DNA of 51,722 bases, taken from the NCBI GenBank assembly GCA_001994995.1, contig MDJM01000080.1, positions 1-51,722 on the forward strand, read 5' to 3'. The position numbers and the translations under genes are program-made. This stretch comes from Candidatus Parepulonipiscium sp. PG-Nuni2H_MBin01. GTDB taxonomy: Bacteria > Bacillota > Clostridia > Lachnospirales > Cellulosilyticaceae. Under the pieces are notes generated by a model that searched no databases, was not told the DNA's origin, and saw only the letters and a list, made by a program, of their open reading frames with translations. Positions 1,839 to 34,025 of the stretch are shown here, one piece after another. Numbering within the stretch: the stretch's first letter is position 1; each line of letters begins with the position of its first letter.

Positions 1839-2014
1839 ATAAAATCCTCCTTGAAAATTCAATTTGACATCCATGTCAAGCATAGAAAAAAATTGAGAAA
1901 ATAAATTATCTTCCCTTCTAAATTATATATCGTTATATTTAAGTTAATATTAATACTTTAGTCAAAAAATATTTTACTTTTTTTGTATGGACTGGCACTA
2001 TTTTATGCTATTTG

Positions 2015-2037
2015 AAAAAAAACGAGCCGAAGCTCGT
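2015..2037 (-). terminator. Terminator of third flagellin
   Basis: On the minus strand, ACGAGC, a TTCG tetraloop, GCTCGT and then a T-run: a compact rho-independent terminator right after the flagellin stop at 2046. Confidence 0.85.
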
Positions 2038-2045
2038 GTATGTAA

Positions 2046-3320
2046 CTAGCTTAACAATTGCAATACTTGTTGTGGCGTTTGATTAGCTTGCGCTAGCATA
2101 GACTGCGATGCTTGTGATAATATATTATACTTCGTAAGCTCCACCATCTCTTCTGCCATATCGGTATCGCGAATGTTAGATTCAGCCGATTGCAAATTCT
2201 CAGCTGTGTTATCCACATTTTTAATCGTATGCTCAAGCCTATTTTGCACTGCACCAAGTAATGCTCGCTGTTGTGATATTTGCTCAATAGCCGCATCTAT
2301 CATTTCTAACGATGCACTAGCCTCAGCTTTAGTCCCTACGTTTACTTCCTCTAATCCTAACGAAAATACTCCCATTGCATCTATCGTTACATTGATTTTC
2401 TGATCTTGATTTGCTCCAACTTGAAACTCAAACGTTCTAGAACCTGATATTGATGTATCATAGCTTTGCTCACTCATCGCTGCTAATGCTGTTTTCATTT
2501 CATTTAATGATTCTATTGTAGTTGTAAATGCATCAGTGTCAAAAGTGGAGGTGGTTGCAAGGCCTATTTCGGTAGATATAGAACTTTCCACAGAAGCCCA
2601 GCTGGCATAGTTTAGCATATTAGCTAGTTGATCTAACTCCAGTTCGTAATAAGCAGTGCCATCGTCATTAGTTGCATTAGTATCACTTAAATTCTGTAAC
2701 GCCGCTTTAAGATCTACCAATTCACTAGCACCAAACAATGAACCCATAGTTGTATCCCATGCAGCTATATGAGCATCCATATCAGCATACATAGCAGCTT
2801 CGGTTTGCGCTATTAGCGCATTTAAATCGGTTTTAGACATTGCAGCATATTCGGCGTTAATGTTAGAAGTGCCAACAGTGTTGTTAGTGTAAGTAACAGA
2901 GCCATCTCCATATAATAGTAGTTGCTCATTAAATTCAGTTTTTGCAGCAATTCCATCAATCTCTTGAAGCAACTGATTAACTTCAAGATTAAGTTTATCG
3001 CGGTCAGAATCAGTATAAGTATCATTCATAGACTGAATAGAAAGCTCTCTCATACGCGCCAGCATTTCTTGCGTCTCACCAAGCGCGCCCTCAGCCGTTT
3101 GAATTAGCGAAATACCATCTTGAGCATTACGGCTTGCCTGATTTAACCCATTAATCTGATTACGCATCTTTTCAGAAATAGCAAGTCCAGCCGCGTCATC
3201 ACCTGCTCTATTAATACGCATACCAGAAGACAGTTTTTCCATAGAACCAGCTTGGGCTTTATTATTAATACCTAATTGCCTATTAGCATTATCAGCCATT
3301 AAATTATTATAAATTATCAT
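2046..3320 (-). CDS. fliC: Flagellin, third paralogue
   Basis: A complete flagellin of about 424 residues with the same conserved ends as its neighbours (NLMADNANRQLG at the N-terminus; LTKYNILSQASQSMLAQANQ at the C-terminus) and a different central domain of about 150 residues. The start at 3320 is set by an AGGAGG upstream; the longer frame (to 3353) begins before that site. Its N-terminal coding stretch shares a 77-bp perfect block with the flagellin at 1-293. Helix residues such as RMRELSIQS and the C-terminal coiled coil are intact, so the product should polymerise. Confidence 0.96.
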   Translation of the reverse strand: MIIYNNLMADNANRQLGINNKAQAGSMEKLSSGMRINRAGDDAAGLAISEKMRNQINGLNQASRNAQDGISLIQTAEGALGETQEMLARMRELSIQSMNDTYTDSDRDKLNLEVNQLLQEIDGIAAKTEFNEQLLLYGDGSVTYTNNTVGTSNINAEYAAMSKTDLNALIAQTEAAMYADMDAHIAAWDTTMGSLFGASELVDLKAALQNLSDTNATNDDGTAYYELELDQLANMLNYASWASVESSISTEIGLATTSTFDTDAFTTTIESLNEMKTALAAMSEQSYDTSISGSRTFEFQVGANQDQKINVTIDAMGVFSLGLEEVNVGTKAEASASLEMIDAAIEQISQQRALLGAVQNRLEHTIKNVDNTAENLQSAESNIRDTDMAEEMVELTKYNILSQASQSMLAQANQTPQQVLQLLS

Positions 3321-3672
3321 ATTAAATCCTCCTTGAAATTTAGCATCTGACATCCTTGTCAGAATAATATTAGCAAGAAGACAGCAGTAGCCCTCTTCTC
3401 CATATATATTATATCGTTATATTACAGTATAAATTAATACTAAATACAAATATTTTTTATTTTTGTCCTCGTGCTATTTCCATTACCTTATAATACATTC
3501 CGCCGTTCTCGGCTATAATATTATTATACCTAACTAAGCAGAATAATTGTGGATTTAATCCATCAACAATAAAAAAATAAGCAAACTACTACAAATCGAT
3601 AAAAAAAAGTGCAAGTAATATAAATTAATAACATCAAAGATTAAAAATTAACAGCAGTTTAGTAATTAATAG
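3321..3672. other. Divergent intergenic region, flagellin / xerD
   Basis: No gene is seen. On the minus strand, about 95 bases upstream of the flagellin start, the segment TATAACGATATA (near 3412-3423) is shared with the region upstream of the second flagellin (near 1926-1937), where AGTATTAAT also occurs a little farther up. This is the best candidate for a motility sigma-factor promoter. The rest is AT-rich, without repeats or hairpins of note. Confidence 0.35.
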
Positions 3673-3701
3673 TAGACACTTCTTTAGAAGTTATGTATAA
3701 T
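3673..3701 (+). promoter_or_regulatory. Vegetative promoter of xerD with palindrome in spacer
   Basis: TAGACA (3673-3678) and TATAAT (3696-3701) are 17 bases apart. The spacer is largely occupied by a dyad, ACTTCT-TT-AGAAGT (3678-3691), placed where a repressor would block RNA polymerase. The TATAAT lies 22 bases before the start codon at 3724. Confidence 0.6.
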
Positions 3702-3723
3702 ACACTATAGAAGGGGGAGAAAA

Positions 3724-4566
3724 ATGAAACAGCATTTGCAAGATTTTATTCACTATCTTAAAGTTGACAAAATGTCAGCAAATAACACAATTCAATCATA
3801 CGAACGGGATTTAAACTGCTTTATTAGGTACGCTAACAGTATTGAGGTAAAAGATATTGCCAACGTAGACACTGACATAATTAAGTCTTATCTTCTATAT
3901 CTCGAGGAAAACGATAAATCGGTTGCCACTGTGACTAGAAATTTGGCTTCTATCAAATCTTTTTTTAGATATCTATTTACGACAGACAAAATTGAAACTA
4001 ATGCGTCGGCTGAAATATCTTTAAAAAAAGTTGAGAGAAAAACTCCTAGAGTGTTAACGGAAGATGAAATCCGTTTATTACTTCTGCAACCTGACCTAGA
4101 TACTAACAAAGGTATTAGGGATAAAGCTATGATTGAACTGCTGTACGCCACCGGCATAAGAGTGTCGGAACTTATAACGTTAAACATTTGTGACGTTAAT
4201 TTAAAACAAGGATTTATTGTATGCCGCGAGAACTCAAAGGAAAGACGTATTCCTATAGGACCTAGTGCAATCGACGCAATAGAGCTCTACATAAAGAATA
4301 CGAGGACTGACTTGTTAGTTGATGCTTCAGAAGGTGTATTATTTTTAAACTTTAATGGTAAAGGTTTAACACGTCAGGGATTTTGGAAAATTCTCAAAAA
4401 ATATGTAGACAAAGCAGGTATTGATGGTGATGTTACGCCGCATACTTTAAGACATTCTTTTGCAAACCATTTATTAAAACATGGTGCAAGCCTAAAATCC
4501 GTGCAGCAAATGCTTGGCCATGTAGATATTAATACCACTCAGCTATATTTAGAAATCGATAGATAA
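3724..4566 (+). CDS. xerD: Tyrosine recombinase XerD-like
   Basis: A 280-residue site-specific tyrosine recombinase. The N-terminal core-binding domain covers roughly residues 1-90. The catalytic domain carries all active-site residues of the family: Arg146 (ATGIRVSEL), Lys172, His240 and Arg243 (HTLRHSFANHLL), His266 (LGHVDINTT) and the nucleophile Tyr275. The length and the phosphopentomutase neighbour downstream fit the chromosomal XerD that resolves dimers at dif with XerC. The C-terminus stops five residues after the nucleophile, shorter than usual for XerD, which normally has a tail contacting its partner. The start has GGGGGAG eight bases upstream. It is unrelated to the serine recombinase of the prophage and so is unlikely to serve it. 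Confidence 0.9.
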   Translation: MKQHLQDFIHYLKVDKMSANNTIQSYERDLNCFIRYANSIEVKDIANVDTDIIKSYLLYLEENDKSVATVTRNLASIKSFFRYLFTTDKIETNASAEISLKKVERKTPRVLTEDEIRLLLLQPDLDTNKGIRDKAMIELLYATGIRVSELITLNICDVNLKQGFIVCRENSKERRIPIGPSAIDAIELYIKNTRTDLLVDASEGVLFLNFNGKGLTRQGFWKILKKYVDKAGIDGDVTPHTLRHSFANHLLKHGASLKSVQQMLGHVDINTTQLYLEIDR

Positions 4567-4576
4567 CCAAACACAA

Positions 4577-4603
4577 GCCCTAACGTACTCAGTATGTTAG
4601 GGC
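4577..4603 (+). terminator. Hairpin after xerD
   Basis: GCCCTAAC and GTTAGGGC form an 8-bp stem with an 11-nt loop. The following T-run is weak (an ATTTTT eight bases on), so termination may be partial. Confidence 0.55.
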
Positions 4604-4727
4604 AATTACTATTTTTGGCAATGTGCACAGCCTTGTAGATAATTTAATTACTATGGTACCATGTTGTTGTTGAATTATTATATCAACAGAATTTATCATA
4701 TTTATCATAATGAGAGGCGGGAGATTT

Positions 4728-5894
4728 ATGAAAAAAGTAATTTGGATTGTTCTTGATAGCGTTGGTATTGGGGCGTTGCCAGATGCGGCTGATTATGGTG
4801 ATGGCGATGTGGATACGCTAGGCAATGTTTACTCAGCTAATCATGGCTTAAGGTTGCCCACTTTGCGCAAACTAGGCCTTTTTAATATTGACGGTGTTAG
4901 TGTTGATGAAAAGTTTGATAATCCAATTGGTAGTTATGGTAGATTAAATGAATTGTCTAAGGGAAAAGATACAACTACTGGCCACTGGGAGATGGTGGGA
5001 ATTCACACTGAAGTTCCGTTCCCCACTTATCCTTATGGATTTCCAGAAGAAATTATTCGAGAGTTTGAGGCGCGCACTGGCCACTGTGTAATAGGTAACA
5101 TTCCTGCTTCTGGTACTCAGATTATTGAGGAGCTTGGCGAGCAGCATATGTGTACTAAAAATTTAATTGTTTACACTTCAGCAGATAGCGTGTTGCAAAT
5201 TGCAGCTCATGAAAAAATTATACCTATTGATGACCTATATAAATACTGCGAGATTGCGCGTGAGATTATGCGCGGAGAACATGAGGTTTCTAGAGTTATT
5301 GCTAGACCGTTTGAAGGCGATGTAGGTAAATTCACTAGAACTGCTAACCGCCATGATTATGCAGTTGCTCCAACAGAAGAGAATTTGCTATGCTATGCCA
5401 AAAACGCCGATATTCCTGTTATTGGTATAGGCAAAATTGAAGACATTTTTGCTGGCAGTGGTATTAGTGCTGCTGTTCATACTAAAGGCAATGATGAAGG
5501 GATGGACCTTACTATTAAATATACGAAAGAACTTGATAGCGGTATTATATTTACTAATTTAGTGGATTTTGATATGAAATGGGGACATCGCAATGACCCT
5601 ATAGGTTATGGCAGAGGGCTTGAAGTGGTGGATGGTCAAATCGGTAAGTTGCTTGAAGTTATGGATAAGGATGATATTTTATTTATAACTGCTGACCATG
5701 GTTGCGACCCAACTGCACAAGGCACTGACCATACGCGCGAATATGTACCGCTATTAATCTACAGCCCTGCTTTTACCGGCGGAGTTAATCTAGGTACTAG
5801 AAATTCTTTTGCAGACATAGGACAAACCGTATCAGAAATTTTTGGGCTTAGAAAATTAGCTATTGGCAAAAGCTTTTTAAATGAACTAAACTAG
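4728..5894 (+). CDS. deoB: Phosphopentomutase
   Basis: A 388-residue metalloenzyme of the alkaline-phosphatase superfamily that interconverts ribose-1-phosphate and ribose-5-phosphate (and the deoxy forms) in nucleoside salvage. Seen directly: the N-terminal metal site VLDSVGIGALPDA, the substrate-site motif GKDTTTGHWEM, and the C-terminal metal ligands in TADHGCDPT with GTDHTREYVP. The length matches the family (about 390). The start at 4728 (MKKVIWIVLDS) is preferred over the frame's earlier ATG because GGCGGGAG lies just upstream. XerD followed by deoB is a common pairing in Firmicutes. No other salvage gene is adjacent. Confidence 0.97.
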   Translation: MKKVIWIVLDSVGIGALPDAADYGDGDVDTLGNVYSANHGLRLPTLRKLGLFNIDGVSVDEKFDNPIGSYGRLNELSKGKDTTTGHWEMVGIHTEVPFPTYPYGFPEEIIREFEARTGHCVIGNIPASGTQIIEELGEQHMCTKNLIVYTSADSVLQIAAHEKIIPIDDLYKYCEIAREIMRGEHEVSRVIARPFEGDVGKFTRTANRHDYAVAPTEENLLCYAKNADIPVIGIGKIEDIFAGSGISAAVHTKGNDEGMDLTIKYTKELDSGIIFTNLVDFDMKWGHRNDPIGYGRGLEVVDGQIGKLLEVMDKDDILFITADHGCDPTAQGTDHTREYVPLLIYSPAFTGGVNLGTRNSFADIGQTVSEIFGLRKLAIGKSFLNELN

Positions 5895-8995: not shown

Positions 8996-9577
8996 TTAAT
9001 ACTTAGTAATTATTGGCTGAATTTGTTTAAATTCCAGTGCAGCCTCAAGAGTGGCAGGCACTAAGCTTAAGTCTGAAATAAGAGAAAAAGGCTTATTAAT
9101 ATGGTCATCTTGAGCAAAAGGTACAAAAAACACACTTTGATTAGTAATAAGAGTGCCAATATTTTGCAAATTAATACCTAAACCATCATTAGTAGAAATA
9201 GCTATAATAACAGGCTTAGCATTTCTAAGCAAAGATTTAGCTGAAAGAGTTACAGCAGTGTCGGTAAGCCCGTGAGCTAATTTTGATAGAGTGTTGCCAG
9301 TGCAAGGAGCGATTAAAATAGCATCAATGATACCACGTGGGCCTAAAGGCTCTGCTCCAGGAATAGTGTGAATAATAGATTTACCAGTAATAGTCTCAAT
9401 CTTAGCGATAAAATCCTCGCTTTTACCAAATCTAGTAGAAATTTCGTAAGCATTATTGGACATAATAGGATAAACATCAATCCCAAGGTCCACAACTAAA
9501 TGTTCAATCATCTTAACCGCAGCTGCAAACGTACAAAACGAACCGCAAAGTGCAACGCCTAACTTAAGGTCTTTCAT
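8996..9577 (-). CDS. spoVFB: Dipicolinate synthase subunit B
   Basis: A 193-residue flavoprotein-fold subunit that, with SpoVFA, oxidises the lysine-pathway intermediate to dipicolinic acid in the mother cell during sporulation; dipicolinate is then packed into the spore core. Seen: an N-terminal flavoprotein motif (GVALCGSFCTF), the AEPLGPRGIIDAILIAPCTGNTLSKLAHGLTD block typical of the family, and NDGLG. The ATG overlaps the stop of the spoVFA 3' fragment (ATGA), so the two genes should be translationally coupled. Because the upstream part of spoVFA is 23.6 kb away, the normal operon promoter cannot reach spoVFB while the prophage is in place. Confidence 0.95.
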   Translation of the reverse strand: MKDLKLGVALCGSFCTFAAAVKMIEHLVVDLGIDVYPIMSNNAYEISTRFGKSEDFIAKIETITGKSIIHTIPGAEPLGPRGIIDAILIAPCTGNTLSKLAHGLTDTAVTLSAKSLLRNAKPVIIAISTNDGLGINLQNIGTLITNQSVFFVPFAQDDHINKPFSLISDLSLVPATLEAALEFKQIQPIITKY

Positions 9578-10068
9578 AATCTTTCCCCCCGCTTATGCAT
9601 AATAATTTCAAGTCCTTGATACAAGATTTTCGCGGCAGTTTTTGGAGCTACTTTACCAGGTAAGCTTGGTGCTGGTATACAGTGCATTCCGCGAGTTGCA
9701 CAGTAATTTAAGTCAATCCCTCCTGGTGGTGAGGCAAGCTCAATGTATACACTATCTAATGAACATACATCGATATGCTTAGCATCTAGTATCGGAACTG
9801 GTATAGTGTTAAATATAAAATCAAATTTCCACAAATGCTTTTTTAAATCCTCTAATGGTACTGGAATATAATCATATGCTTCTATAAATGCTAAATCTTT
9901 TGTCGAGCGCGCTTCTACATATACGTTAGCTCCAAGTCCTTTTAACCTGTGCGCTAAAATTTTTCCACATCGGCCAAATCCTAGCACTACACATTTGCTG
10001 TCGTTTATTGTTACTTCACTATTTTGCATAGCATACTGTATCGCGCCTTCAGCAGTCGGTATTGCGTT
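9574..10068 (-). pseudogene. spoVFA: SpoVFA (DpaA) 3' fragment, split by the prophage
   Basis: This stretch encodes the C-terminal 164 residues of dipicolinate synthase subunit A, from NAIPTAEGAIQYAMQ to the end. It includes the Rossmann nucleotide-binding motif VLGFGRCGKILAHRL and the family block ELASPPGGIDLNYC...PSLPGKVAPKTA. The frame stays open for 36 codons into prophage DNA, but those read antisense to the recombinase gene and have no ribosome site. The N-terminal 126 residues are encoded at 33646-34025 in the same orientation. Joining the two at GAA gives a 290-codon gene, close to the 297 residues of the B. subtilis protein. I regard it as a split gene meant to be repaired rather than a decayed one: neither part has a frameshift or internal stop. 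Confidence 0.93.
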
Positions 10069-11779
10069 CGCTATCGCTTTGTAAAGTCGTCTTAACAAGG
10101 GTGCTCTCACCATTGTAAACGCCAGAAATAACTGCTGAATCTCTATAATACAACTCAATAACCATTCGCGTTCCATCCCATACCATTTGCTTTACAACGT
10201 TTTTAACAAGTGTTCGTTGCATATCTATATCATTTAAGGTTACTAAATTTTTTAATTCAACCAAAGCTTTCTGAACTAAAGAAATGGCGAGTTCATCTGC
10301 TTCAGTATTTTTATTAACAATTTCTGCTTCTGTTAATTTCTGCCTAACAGCAGTTGCTTCCTTGTTTAATTTATCTATCTGTGCTATTATAAGGTTGCTA
10401 ATTTCTGTTTGAGTAATATTTAATGTACTGAGTTGCTGGAGTAAATTTTCTATAGCAGTTTCTTTTTCTTCTACTTCGGATTTTAACAATTGGAGTTCAT
10501 TGTTATTAGTCTCCACAGCTTGAGTCGCTAACTGTTTTTTAGAGCATAATATTTGCATCTGCTCTGATGACTCATCTGCTAAGGAGACTAAATAATTCAA
10601 AACATCACTATCAATATCTTTTCCTTGTACATTTTTTTGATTACATAATTGGCGATTAGTAACTTCTTTCGTACTGCAAATATAAACAAATGCTTGAGTC
10701 CCATCTTTTAAAATTTTACCTTTTTTCAATCTCATAGTAGATTGGCAATGCGCGCATTTAATCAGGCCACCTAATATACCACACTTAGATTTTGCCCTAA
10801 CTTTATAGCAATTTTGGGTAGCACTGGCCTTGCGAATCGATTGTGTTAGTACCCACTCAGCGCCTAGAATTACACCATCATGTTTGCCAACTGCTATAAT
10901 CCAATCTGATATATCATTTTTTGGCTGATAACCACCTGAACCTGATGCACTACGAGTTCTGTTATATGCCATCAAACCATGTTTACCATCAAAAGCAGTT
11001 TTAGCACTAGCTATATCACAGTTATTAGATTGTAGATAATCATACATAGCGCTATCTGCAATTGCATATACTGGATTCTCTAAAACTGATAAAACTGTTG
11101 ATGGCAAAAAATTGCAACTACGTTTAGTCTTAATATGATTTAATCGCAAAAATGTTTCTACCGCATGCAAACTTTTTAATTCTAGGTATTTACTAAATAT
11201 AAGCTTTACAGTTTCCAATTCAGACTGGACAGGGGTTAATTTATACATTTTTTTAAGGGTGAAATTTTCATCATAATATTCTATTTTTTCCGACTCAAAA
11301 CCAAGCGGTGTTGTTCCACCCAACCATCTGCCGCTTCTAGCTAACTTATGCATATTGTCCTTTATCCGTTCTGCAATAGTGTCACGTTCCCATTGTGCAA
11401 ACGATGCTATCATATTTAACATCATTCGCCCAGCTGGCGTAGATGTGTCACAATGTTCTTTAACGGATATAAATTCGATATTTTTGTTCGCTAGCGTCGA
11501 CTGAATATTTATAAAATCTTGTAAACTGCGGCTTACCCTATCAAACTTATAACATATTAACATTTCAAATTTATTGCATTGAATATCTTTTAAAAATTGC
11601 TGAAACTGTGGCCGTACGGTATTACTACCACTGTATCCATCATCCACATAAATTTTAAACTCAGGGTTTTGTATCATTGTAAACTTATCAATATACTCTT
11701 TGCAGATATCCACTTGCATTGTTATGGATTCACCTTGTTCGCTTAGCTTTGATTTGCGAGCATATATTGCTATTTTCAT
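10049..11779 (-). CDS. Large serine recombinase of the prophage
   Basis: A 576-residue large serine integrase. The resolvase domain (1-150) has the nucleophile Ser10 (YARKSK) and the conserved YKFDRVSR and GRMMLNMIASFAQWERDTIAER motifs. Then come a recombinase domain (about 180-320), a zinc ribbon (Cys342, Cys345, Cys368, Cys379) and a coiled coil (about 410-490), which in this family controls synapsis and partner choice. An AGGAGG precedes the ATG. The gene runs through the left attachment junction: its last five codons (RNTDC) and stop are spoVFA DNA. After excision the same frame would continue 88 codons and gain a helix-turn-helix, giving 659 residues. Skin-type elements use recombinases of this class for mother-cell excision, and that is its likely job here. 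Confidence 0.95.
   Translation of the reverse strand: MKIAIYARKSKLSEQGESITMQVDICKEYIDKFTMIQNPEFKIYVDDGYSGSNTVRPQFQQFLKDIQCNKFEMLICYKFDRVSRSLQDFINIQSTLANKNIEFISVKEHCDTSTPAGRMMLNMIASFAQWERDTIAERIKDNMHKLARSGRWLGGTTPLGFESEKIEYYDENFTLKKMYKLTPVQSELETVKLIFSKYLELKSLHAVETFLRLNHIKTKRSCNFLPSTVLSVLENPVYAIADSAMYDYLQSNNCDIASAKTAFDGKHGLMAYNRTRSASGSGGYQPKNDISDWIIAVGKHDGVILGAEWVLTQSIRKASATQNCYKVRAKSKCGILGGLIKCAHCQSTMRLKKGKILKDGTQAFVYICSTKEVTNRQLCNQKNVQGKDIDSDVLNYLVSLADESSEQMQILCSKKQLATQAVETNNNELQLLKSEVEEKETAIENLLQQLSTLNITQTEISNLIIAQIDKLNKEATAVRQKLTEAEIVNKNTEADELAISLVQKALVELKNLVTLNDIDMQRTLVKNVVKQMVWDGTRMVIELYYRDSAVISGVYNGESTLVKTTLQSDSERNTDC
10056..10087. other. Left prophage/spoVFA junction (attachment site)
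   Basis: Host DNA (minus strand, codons for AIPTAEG) meets prophage DNA. The sequence shared with the right junction on the minus strand is GAA-N-GC-N-AT (10060-10069 here, 33639-33648 at the right). In the rebuilt phage site CGATAGC-GAAT-GCTATCG is a perfect dyad centred on the AA of GAA (10067-10068), which is therefore the best guess for the two-base crossover. The variable positions fall on wobble bases of spoVFA codons, so the repaired protein reads Asn-Ala-Ile-Pro wherever exchange occurs. Confidence 0.85.
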
Positions 11780-11856: not shown

Positions 11857-11884
11857 AAAAAAAGCTGTAAGTATTAATTACAGC
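11857..11884 (-). terminator. Terminator between the 56-residue ORF and the recombinase
   Basis: On the minus strand GCTGTAA, a 7-nt loop, TTACAGC, then seven T. It overlaps the stop codon of the ORF at 11874-12044, so recombinase transcription must start downstream of it or read through. Confidence 0.8.
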
Positions 11885-12044
11885 ACAGATAAGATGTTAC
11901 AGCATTGTGTATATCAATATTTAGTTGGGTATAACTGTTAGCTATAAGGCCATTAAGCTCAATTAGTAGTTCTTGGTGAATATCCGTAGCTTTATAAACT
12001 CCCTCAGGCAATGTTCTGTCTATTAACTCTTTTATATCAATCAT
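11874..12044 (-). CDS. Small acidic protein next to the recombinase; possible directionality factor
   Basis: A 56-residue ORF (MIDIKELIDRTLPEGVYK...) with GAGGTGG eight bases upstream of the ATG and a terminator at its stop. It is predicted to be soluble and mostly helical, with Cys-Cys near the end; no known motif is recognised. The recombination directionality factors that make serine integrases excise are small proteins often encoded beside the integrase (SprB beside SprA in SP-beta is the closest known case). Position and size make this the first candidate, but nothing in the sequence proves it. The YHYH-protein cluster lies upstream behind a strong bidirectional terminator. Confidence 0.55.
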   Translation of the reverse strand: MIDIKELIDRTLPEGVYKATDIHQELLIELNGLIANSYTQLNIDIHNAVTSYLCCN

Positions 12045-12791: not shown

Positions 12792-12943
12792 TATATTTTC
12801 CCCCATTTTTTTATGTATTGTATTTTAAAAATTTTTGAGTACCTTGATTGCGCTACCTCAGATTCTTTATTAAGTATAGTAAAGGCGATACCGATAGCGA
12901 ACCCAATACCGAACCCAATACCGAACGCAATACCGAATGCCAT
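12791..12943 (-). CDS. Putative 50-residue glycine-zipper membrane peptide
   Basis: The minus strand encodes MAFGIAFGIGFGIGFAIGIA followed by FTILNKESE and a basic tail ending KKWGKI. The first 24 residues form one strongly hydrophobic helix with Gly every three or four residues, a glycine-zipper pattern seen in helices that self-associate in membranes; the C-terminus carries many Lys/Arg. The stop overlaps the start of the YHYH gene (TAATG), the best evidence that it is translated. Against it, the Shine-Dalgarno is poor (AAAGG two or three bases before the ATG), and the repeated codons arise from a 12-bp DNA repeat that may have another role. Single-helix toxin, holin-like or accessory functions are all possible. 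Confidence 0.45.
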   Translation of the reverse strand: MAFGIAFGIGFGIGFAIGIAFTILNKESEVAQSRYSKIFKIQYIKKWGKI

Positions 12944-33378: not shown

Positions 33379-33570
33379 TTATATACCCCCCCTTTTGTAA
33401 AAAGTTAATAGCTGTTGTTTATAGCCTAATCCTCGTTGCTGATAAGGTACACTAAGTCCCCTTTCGTATCGACTTAAAGTACTTGTAGCGATGCCAAGTT
33501 TAAGCGCTACATATTTAATTGATAAACCTAACGCCTTGCGACGATAGTAAATATAGCTGCCGAAACACAA
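33379..33570 (-). CDS. XRE-type helix-turn-helix segment; C-terminus of the recombinase after excision
   Basis: A 63-residue frame (CFGSYIYYRRKALGLSIKYV ... LGIATSTLSRYERGLSVP) with a complete XRE helix-turn-helix. As annotated it would need a TTG start without a good ribosome site (GCGGA four bases before). Upstream the frame is open for 25 codons without an ATG to the right attachment site at GAA (33646-33648), and in the excised circle it is exactly in frame with residue 571 of the serine recombinase. I therefore think it is chiefly the recombinase's detachable C-terminal domain, 88 residues from the junction to the stop. A small stand-alone regulator translated from TTG is the alternative. 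Confidence 0.65.
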   Translation of the reverse strand: MCFGSYIYYRRKALGLSIKYVALKLGIATSTLSRYERGLSVPYQQRGLGYKQQLLTFYKRGGI

Positions 33571-33626
33571 TTTATCCGCAGGTGGACCCCAGGATTGTTG
33601 TGTAATTGTATGATTACCTAGCGACT

Positions 33627-34025
33627 CTAATTTATACCGATAGCATTCAAAATAGCTATCTCATCCATTTCCATAAGGTCAGTATAACTTAAATTACGGA
33701 AATCAAGTTCGTTTACAAGATCTGGCTTTAGTACAGATAAACACAAATGAGGTGATGTCATATATTCCATAAACATTTCAATAGAAACGTTAATATTACT
33801 CAAAGGAGAAAACAAATTTTTACCATCACGACTAAAAGGTATCGGACCTACAACATAATTGCAGTTAGAAATATCTTCTAGTGACTTTGCCACTCGCACA
33901 CCGATTGGAATATCAGGGTGACTTAGGGCATAAACCCAAGTGTCAAAACCTCGGTCGAAAAGAATTTTGGCAAGCCTTACAAAACGTAAATCCCCACCAA
34001 CAATGGCTATAGAAATTGTATTCAA
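33627..34025 (-). pseudogene. spoVFA: SpoVFA (DpaA) 5' fragment, split by the prophage
   Basis: It encodes the N-terminal part of dipicolinate synthase subunit A: MNTISIAIVGGDLRFVRLAKILFDRG, the GPIPFSRDGKNLFSPLS loop typical of the family and MEMDEIAILNAI. After Asn127-Ala-Ile the frame enters prophage DNA, adds Gly-Ile-Asn and stops. The B. subtilis protein continues at the matching point (DDIAIYNSIPTVEG), as does the fragment at 9574-10068 (NAIPTAEG). TTG is the start codon, with AAGGGGG seven or eight bases upstream. A sporulation-type promoter motif lies 40 bases before it. The truncated protein lacks the Rossmann domain and should be inactive. Confidence 0.93.
33637..33660. other. Right prophage/spoVFA junction (attachment site)
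   Basis: On the minus strand host codons GAT GAG ATA GCT ATT TTG are followed by the shared GAA-N-GC-N-AT and then prophage sequence CGGTATAAATTAG. The GCTATCG next to the core is the complement of CGATAGC at the left end; together they form the dyad of the rebuilt phage site. The predicted crossover dinucleotide is AA at 33646-33647. Confidence 0.85.

Follow-up and report, generated by a model that had tools for sequence, protein, structure and literature searches.

A prophage splits the sporulation gene dpaA and carries a serine integrase gene that appears to span its own attachment site

The junction between a prophage and the sporulation gene dpaA (spoVFA) in Candidatus Parepulonipiscium sp. 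PG-Nuni2H_MBin01 raises the question of where in a short shared core the two DNAs were exchanged, and what the exchange does to the genes that meet there. The window is the whole 51,722-nucleotide contig C80 of a 2.7-Mb genome, and the genomes compared with it include no second member of its genus. The following features define the insertion:

8996-9577, minus strand: dpaB (spoVFB), intact in the window (Pfam Flavoprotein, 3.7e-26)
9574-10069, minus strand: 3′ part of the split dpaA (spoVFA), from the reading of the junction and alignment with intact relatives
10061-10069, minus strand: attL core GAACGCAAT, with the predicted crossover AA at 10067-10068
10067-33647, no strand assigned: prophage of 23.6 kb with a contractile-tail module (endolysin, baseplate, tape measure, sheath, major head, protease, portal and terminase)
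33640-33648, minus strand: attR core GAATGCTAT, with the predicted crossover AA at 33646-33647
33640-34025, minus strand: 5′ part of the split dpaA (spoVFA) (Pfam DpaA_N, 8.5e-19)

Rejoining the flanks at the common core gives an in-frame DpaA of 290 residues (..MDEIAILNAIPTAEGAIQ..), the full length of which can be aligned with intact relatives. The gene is split and its parts rejoin precisely and in frame, as in the intervening prophages of sporulation genes, and the site in the window is the attL of a serine-integrase prophage of the skin or vfbin kind in the mother-cell sporulation gene dpaA. Skin of B. subtilis and C. difficile and the vfbin, SPbeta, gin and yin elements are likewise serine-integrase elements that split a mother-cell sporulation gene, restore it by excision and use a short core. 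The sections of PMC6957869, PMC10747680 and PMC5595907 cited here name sigK, spoVFB (printed as spoIVFB in PMC6957869), spoVR, spsM, gerE and yabG as split genes and do not name dpaA, which appears to be an addition to the spore genes known to be split by prophages. A second prophage, of about 47 kb, occupies the same dpaA codon in genome G018, and its integrase is 48% identical to that of the window. Among 246 genomes of the order, only the window and G018 have an integrase next to a dpaA 3′ half that begins at this codon.

On the minus strand, attL reads ..AAAGCGATAGC GAACGCAAT ACCGACTGC.. on the integrase side (near context GATAGC GAACGCAAT ACCG), and attR reads ..GATAGCTATTTT GAATGCTAT CGGTATAAATT.. 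at the other end (near context TATTTT GAATGCTAT CGGT). The initial annotation had noted that the junctions have GAA-N-GC-N-AT in common, which is the case, as GAANGCNAT, at 10061-10069 and 33640-33648. It had also correctly placed the differing bases at third codon positions of spoVFA, C/T in an Asn codon (AAC/AAT) and A/T in an Ala codon (GCA/GCT). Since both mismatches in the window are third codon bases and silent, the repaired DpaA is identical whichever copy of the core is kept, as had been claimed.

The gene on the phage side of attL is the integrase, and the reading of its frame across the core is based on the following features:

10049-11779, minus strand: large serine integrase, lysogen form of 576 aa (Pfam Resolvase 1.1e-36, Recombinase 2.4e-11, Zn_ribbon_recom 3.7e-10)
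11874-12044, minus strand: ORF of 56 aa just upstream of the integrase gene, a candidate recombination directionality factor (RDF) by position only
33382-33645, minus strand: integrase tail of 88 codons, which shares the integrase frame only when the DNA is circular (attP form) and would then give a fused product of 659 aa
33445-33552, minus strand: Cro/CI (XRE) helix-turn-helix (HTH) within the tail (Pfam HTH_3 2.4e-9, 36 of 55 profile positions)

The catalytic Resolvase, Recombinase and zinc ribbon domains of a large serine recombinase are all matched above the Pfam cut-offs. The position of the 56-aa ORF may be compared with that of skr upstream of spoIVCA, as given in the cited section of PMC6957869. 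The last codons and the stop of the integrase gene lie inside host dpaA DNA. In the rebuilt attP, the integrase frame passes through the core (..LQSDSE-CYRYKLES..) into the tail, for a product of 659 aa as against 576 aa in the lysogen, where the frame across the core reads ..SERNTDC. The attP thus appears to lie inside the integrase gene, which the initial annotation had missed. Because dpaA must rejoin in frame, the reciprocal junction also has only one possible frame, whatever the point of exchange within the core. In the lysogen of the window, a host stop six codons upstream closes the frame of the tail, and the stretch before the HTH holds one weak TTG and no ATG or GTG. The HTH of the window, which covers 36 of 55 profile positions, is possibly eroded.

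The same arrangement recurs. The dpaA phage of G018 would encode 654 aa in the fused form and 566 aa in the lysogen, and its tail contains an HTH_3 domain (6.1e-14). We collected 17 elements in sigK by means of integrase homologues and sigK halves; these have the attP motif and the Asn-codon target in common with the window. In 12 of the 17, host sigK provides the integrase stop, a TGA that ends 5 nt into the core. Of these 12, eight carry an HTH tail in frame, 149-207 aa long (at least 165 aa in G048, where the fetched piece ends), one has a frameshifted tail and three have none; the eight are not all independent, because G045/G037 and G046/G048 are related pairs. Four further sigK elements have no HTH tail. 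All eight tails that were scanned with Pfam (two from dpaA, six from sigK) contain a Cro/CI-type HTH, with E-values from 1.9e-9 to 3.5e-20 in the seven other than the window. A Foldseek comparison of the sigK-element tail of Tyzzerella sp. An114 (G045) with the PDB returned mostly short matches to Cro/CI-like HTH proteins, none with an E-value below 0.001. Over the 75 codons that follow the core, read in the integrase frame, two pairs of elements gave dN/dS values of 0.041/0.525 and 0.127/1.175 (about 0.1), and the other two frames of this linker do not have the pattern. These values indicate purifying selection on the tail in the integrase frame.

The fusion is read by joining attL to attR, and the viral contigs and genomes yielded no free or circular phage record with a contiguous integrase-HTH gene; production of the long form is therefore what we infer from the joined junctions. 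The motif GATAGCRAATGCTATC occurs at 54 loci in viral contigs, only one of which (L280) adjoins a serine integrase, and the integrase gene there stops before attP. At this locus (1886-5453), an intact GATAGCAAATGCTATC is flanked by two convergent serine integrases. The motif RATAGYAAATGCTATV, searched in 391 genomes of the class, gave no integrase-HTH fusion in the 30 loci fetched, and single-sequence scans with the integrase found no relative in viral contigs or genome contigs. The C. difficile-like genome that was examined has an intact sigK and hence no skinCd junctions. Alignment of the tail with viral contigs retrieved L354 and L355, in which the tail stands beside a different, non-sigK left flank. 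At about position 4001, both carry a sigK-type HTH tail and attR arm, and the left flank ..CAACATAGGC-AA-TGCTATCC suggests an insertion at another site than sigK.

Large serine recombinases are directional, and their excision reaction needs an RDF. Serine integrases are widely used as one-way DNA switches, and their natural direction is usually ascribed to this separate factor. We propose, with a probability of about 0.75, that the window contains a dpaA prophage that recombines at the central AA of the attP dyad, that attP is placed within the integrase gene, and that integration switches the gene between a long and a short product. In the circle formed upon infection or excision, the integrase frame would run through the core and produce a long integrase with the HTH. 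Upon integration, the host gene would provide an early stop, so that a short integrase is made and the tail is left untranslated at the other end of the prophage. Because attP lies inside the gene and a host stop follows after integration, the integrase would alternate between the long form in the circle and the short form in the lysogen. Excision would rebuild dpaA in frame. The AA opens a conserved Asn codon. Most probably, the long form would act on the free circle, or repress from it, and the short form together with a directionality factor would perform excision during sporulation. A form-specific change in integrase activity and an action on phage promoters seem about equally likely. In C. 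difficile, the skin integrase together with its RDF excises the element, and the integrase alone integrates it (PMC5025042). If the proposal is correct, an integrase gene that alters its own product by integrating would constitute a second, built-in layer of direction control. More tentatively, and at somewhat less than even odds, we speculate that in many spore-gene prophages the long and short integrases differ in activity, and that the direction or immunity switch is written by the recombination and not by a separate factor alone.

The tail could instead be an independent Cro-like gene whose fusion to the integrase is incidental; integration would then remove the start and promoter of a regulator that is expressed only from the circle. 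Two elements have such a layout. In the sigK element of G015, an HTH ORF starts on the integrase side and crosses attP, and the integrase gene ends earlier. In the Terrisporobacter phage TPELB_ph1, the integrase of which is the closest from an isolated phage (37%), a separate downstream ORF, without a Pfam match, starts inside attP. However, in the lysogens a host stop closes the tail frame upstream, most tails lack a plausible start codon with a ribosome-binding site ahead of the HTH, and the linker is constrained in the integrase frame from the core onward, so that we consider an independent gene unlikely, at perhaps a third of the weight of the switch.

The switch assumes an exchange at AA. 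The initial annotation had predicted an AA/TT crossover dinucleotide from the dyad of the rebuilt attP, which it described exactly as the arms CGATAGC and GCTATCG around GAAT, centred on AA. When the flanks were shuffled 20000 times, a dyad of seven contiguous pairs appeared 86 times, and 0.7% of the positions of the window have one; the dyad of a single site is therefore only modest evidence. Both junctions can be read in 19 elements, namely the two dpaA phages (window and G018) and the 17 sigK elements. Only one step is the same on both sides in every element, namely the AA with which the conserved Asn codon begins. This result is partly built in, because the patterns that anchored the sigK junctions demand AA at that codon; no element was dropped. 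The dyad is an independent measure, and it peaks at the same centre, with an average of 11.7 of 18 pairs at AA and 3.4-6.2 at other centres in the 19 elements. The predicted dinucleotide is thus supported by sequence comparison, and the central AA of this dyad is the most likely place of recombination.

Large serine recombinases make a 2-bp, non-palindromic crossover at the centre of attP. Taken alone, the window is compatible with an exchange not only at AA but also at the shared GC (offset +3), since the third base of the Asn codon is C in attL and T in attR. Exchange at AA implies AAC in the host and GAAT in the phage. If the C came from the phage, attP was GATAGCG-AA-CGCTATC, a perfect dyad of 8+8 bases, the exchange took place at GC, and the host had AAT. 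Such an attP is identical over GATAGCGAACGCTAT to that of the G015 sigK element, which has the same perfect dyad, and AAT is present in 20 of 20 intact dpaA relatives among the matches listed. Against this, GC lies off the centre of the dyad and is not common to attL and attR in the sigK elements, and a host AAC is allowed because AAC makes up 32% of the Asn codons of this host. Exchange at GC is accordingly improbable, more so than an independent tail gene.

The initial annotation had further suggested a core tuned to spoVFA wobble positions. Both core mismatches of the window are indeed silent, which is within chance for two mismatches in one core (about 1 in 9 by our estimate). However, most sigK elements also have the half-site TGCTAT beside AA, and the host codons there (AAT GAA/GAG ATN) do not match it; the half-site is therefore a conserved arm of attP and not one fitted to dpaA codons. 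In the dpaA phage of G018, the core mismatch falls on a second codon position (ACC versus ATC) and exchanges Thr and Ile, so that the position of the crossover matters there. Selection of the core to fit dpaA is thus very unlikely. Least credible is that the open frame into the HTH is a chance by-product of an integrase gene ending at attP: 88 open codons occur in 0.18% of shuffles, which is possible for one element, but the arrangement is found in ten, with an HTH in eight of eight tails scanned and a pattern of purifying selection.

When the arms of a serine integrase site are nearly palindromic, the central dinucleotide alone sets the orientation of integration. Relatives with a different dinucleotide agree with the role assigned to it in the initial annotation. 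In the metagenome-assembled genome G007 (Cellulosilyticum sp.) and in the IMG/VR record 3300037502_004180 (L150), the integrase adjoins and faces the 5′ half of dpaA; these phages are therefore inverted relative to that of the window. On the integrase side, their arms (..GAGGATGGCA and ..GTAGGGATAGCA) are similar to those found in sigK elements and in the dpaA phage of G018, but TT follows them where the latter two have AA. The comparison uses one junction each from G007 and L150, and it suggests that the dinucleotide fixes the orientation in dpaA. Natural AA and TT pairs of this kind provide a clean test case for the dinucleotide rule.

A phage gene that is shortened by integration has a precedent in the mycobacteriophage BPs, in which attP likewise lies inside a regulatory gene and integration trims the C-terminus of the protein (PMC4557955). 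The gene of BPs encodes the repressor, the short form of which is active and stable (PMC4557955), whereas the gene in the window encodes a serine integrase, and the part lost is a Cro/CI-like tail. The reading frames alone indicate truncation on integration here (659 to 576 aa in the window, 654 to 566 aa in G018, and in the sigK elements), and the truncated gene is not an immunity repressor; the element is BPs-like in layout and is not a member of that class, although BPs is the closest known logic. In archaeal viruses of the SSV type, attP lies in the integrase gene and integration splits it; these integrases are tyrosine recombinases and the gene is inactivated, whereas the catalytic part stays intact in the window. 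Engineered fusions of an RDF to the C-terminus of a serine integrase change its preferred reaction (PMC5737554); these are artificial, whereas the tail in the window is a natural HTH that would be attached only in the circle. The cited sections of PMC6957869, PMC10747680 and PMC5595907 do not describe an integrase-HTH gene spanning attP for skin- or vfbin-type elements, though it is present in the sigK elements analysed here, and in the open-access literature we found no published case in which a serine integrase gene extends across its own attP.

A further feature inside the prophage resembles the junction:

12892-12936, plus strand: attL-like array of 12-bp units, the first 21 bp of which equal the hybrid attL (10056-10076) at all but one position

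Another unit of the array contains an exact 15-bp match to attL. The array does not occur elsewhere in the genome, and the attL of G018 has no comparable array. The opposite strand encodes a small, glycine-rich, membrane-like peptide (MAFGIAFGIGFGIGFAIGIAFT..), and coding chance was rejected as the source of the resemblance, since none of 5000 synonymous recodings of this peptide matched as well. The array may be a decoy att site, a product of gene conversion or a coincidence; it is also a possible donor of the Asn third base by later gene conversion.

Other interruptions of the dpa genes were observed in the compared genomes. G007 and G017 contain the 5′ half of dpaA only. In G017 (contig C212, L058), this half is joined, in the same codon region, to one end of an element that lacks an HTH tail there, and the other end is absent from the assembly. 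In G021 (contig C11, L056 and L057 at 417895 and 465477), a different insertion of about 48 kb splits dpaA near residue 262, at another site. A small element of about 4.7 kb splits dpaB in G018 (contig C6, L060, 954-1328, 4387-6063 and 5975-6277) and in G020 (L061, 4498-4887 and 7816-9468), so that sigK, dpaA and dpaB are all interrupted in G018. The dpaB element has its own serine integrase and, apparently, genes of the agr type.
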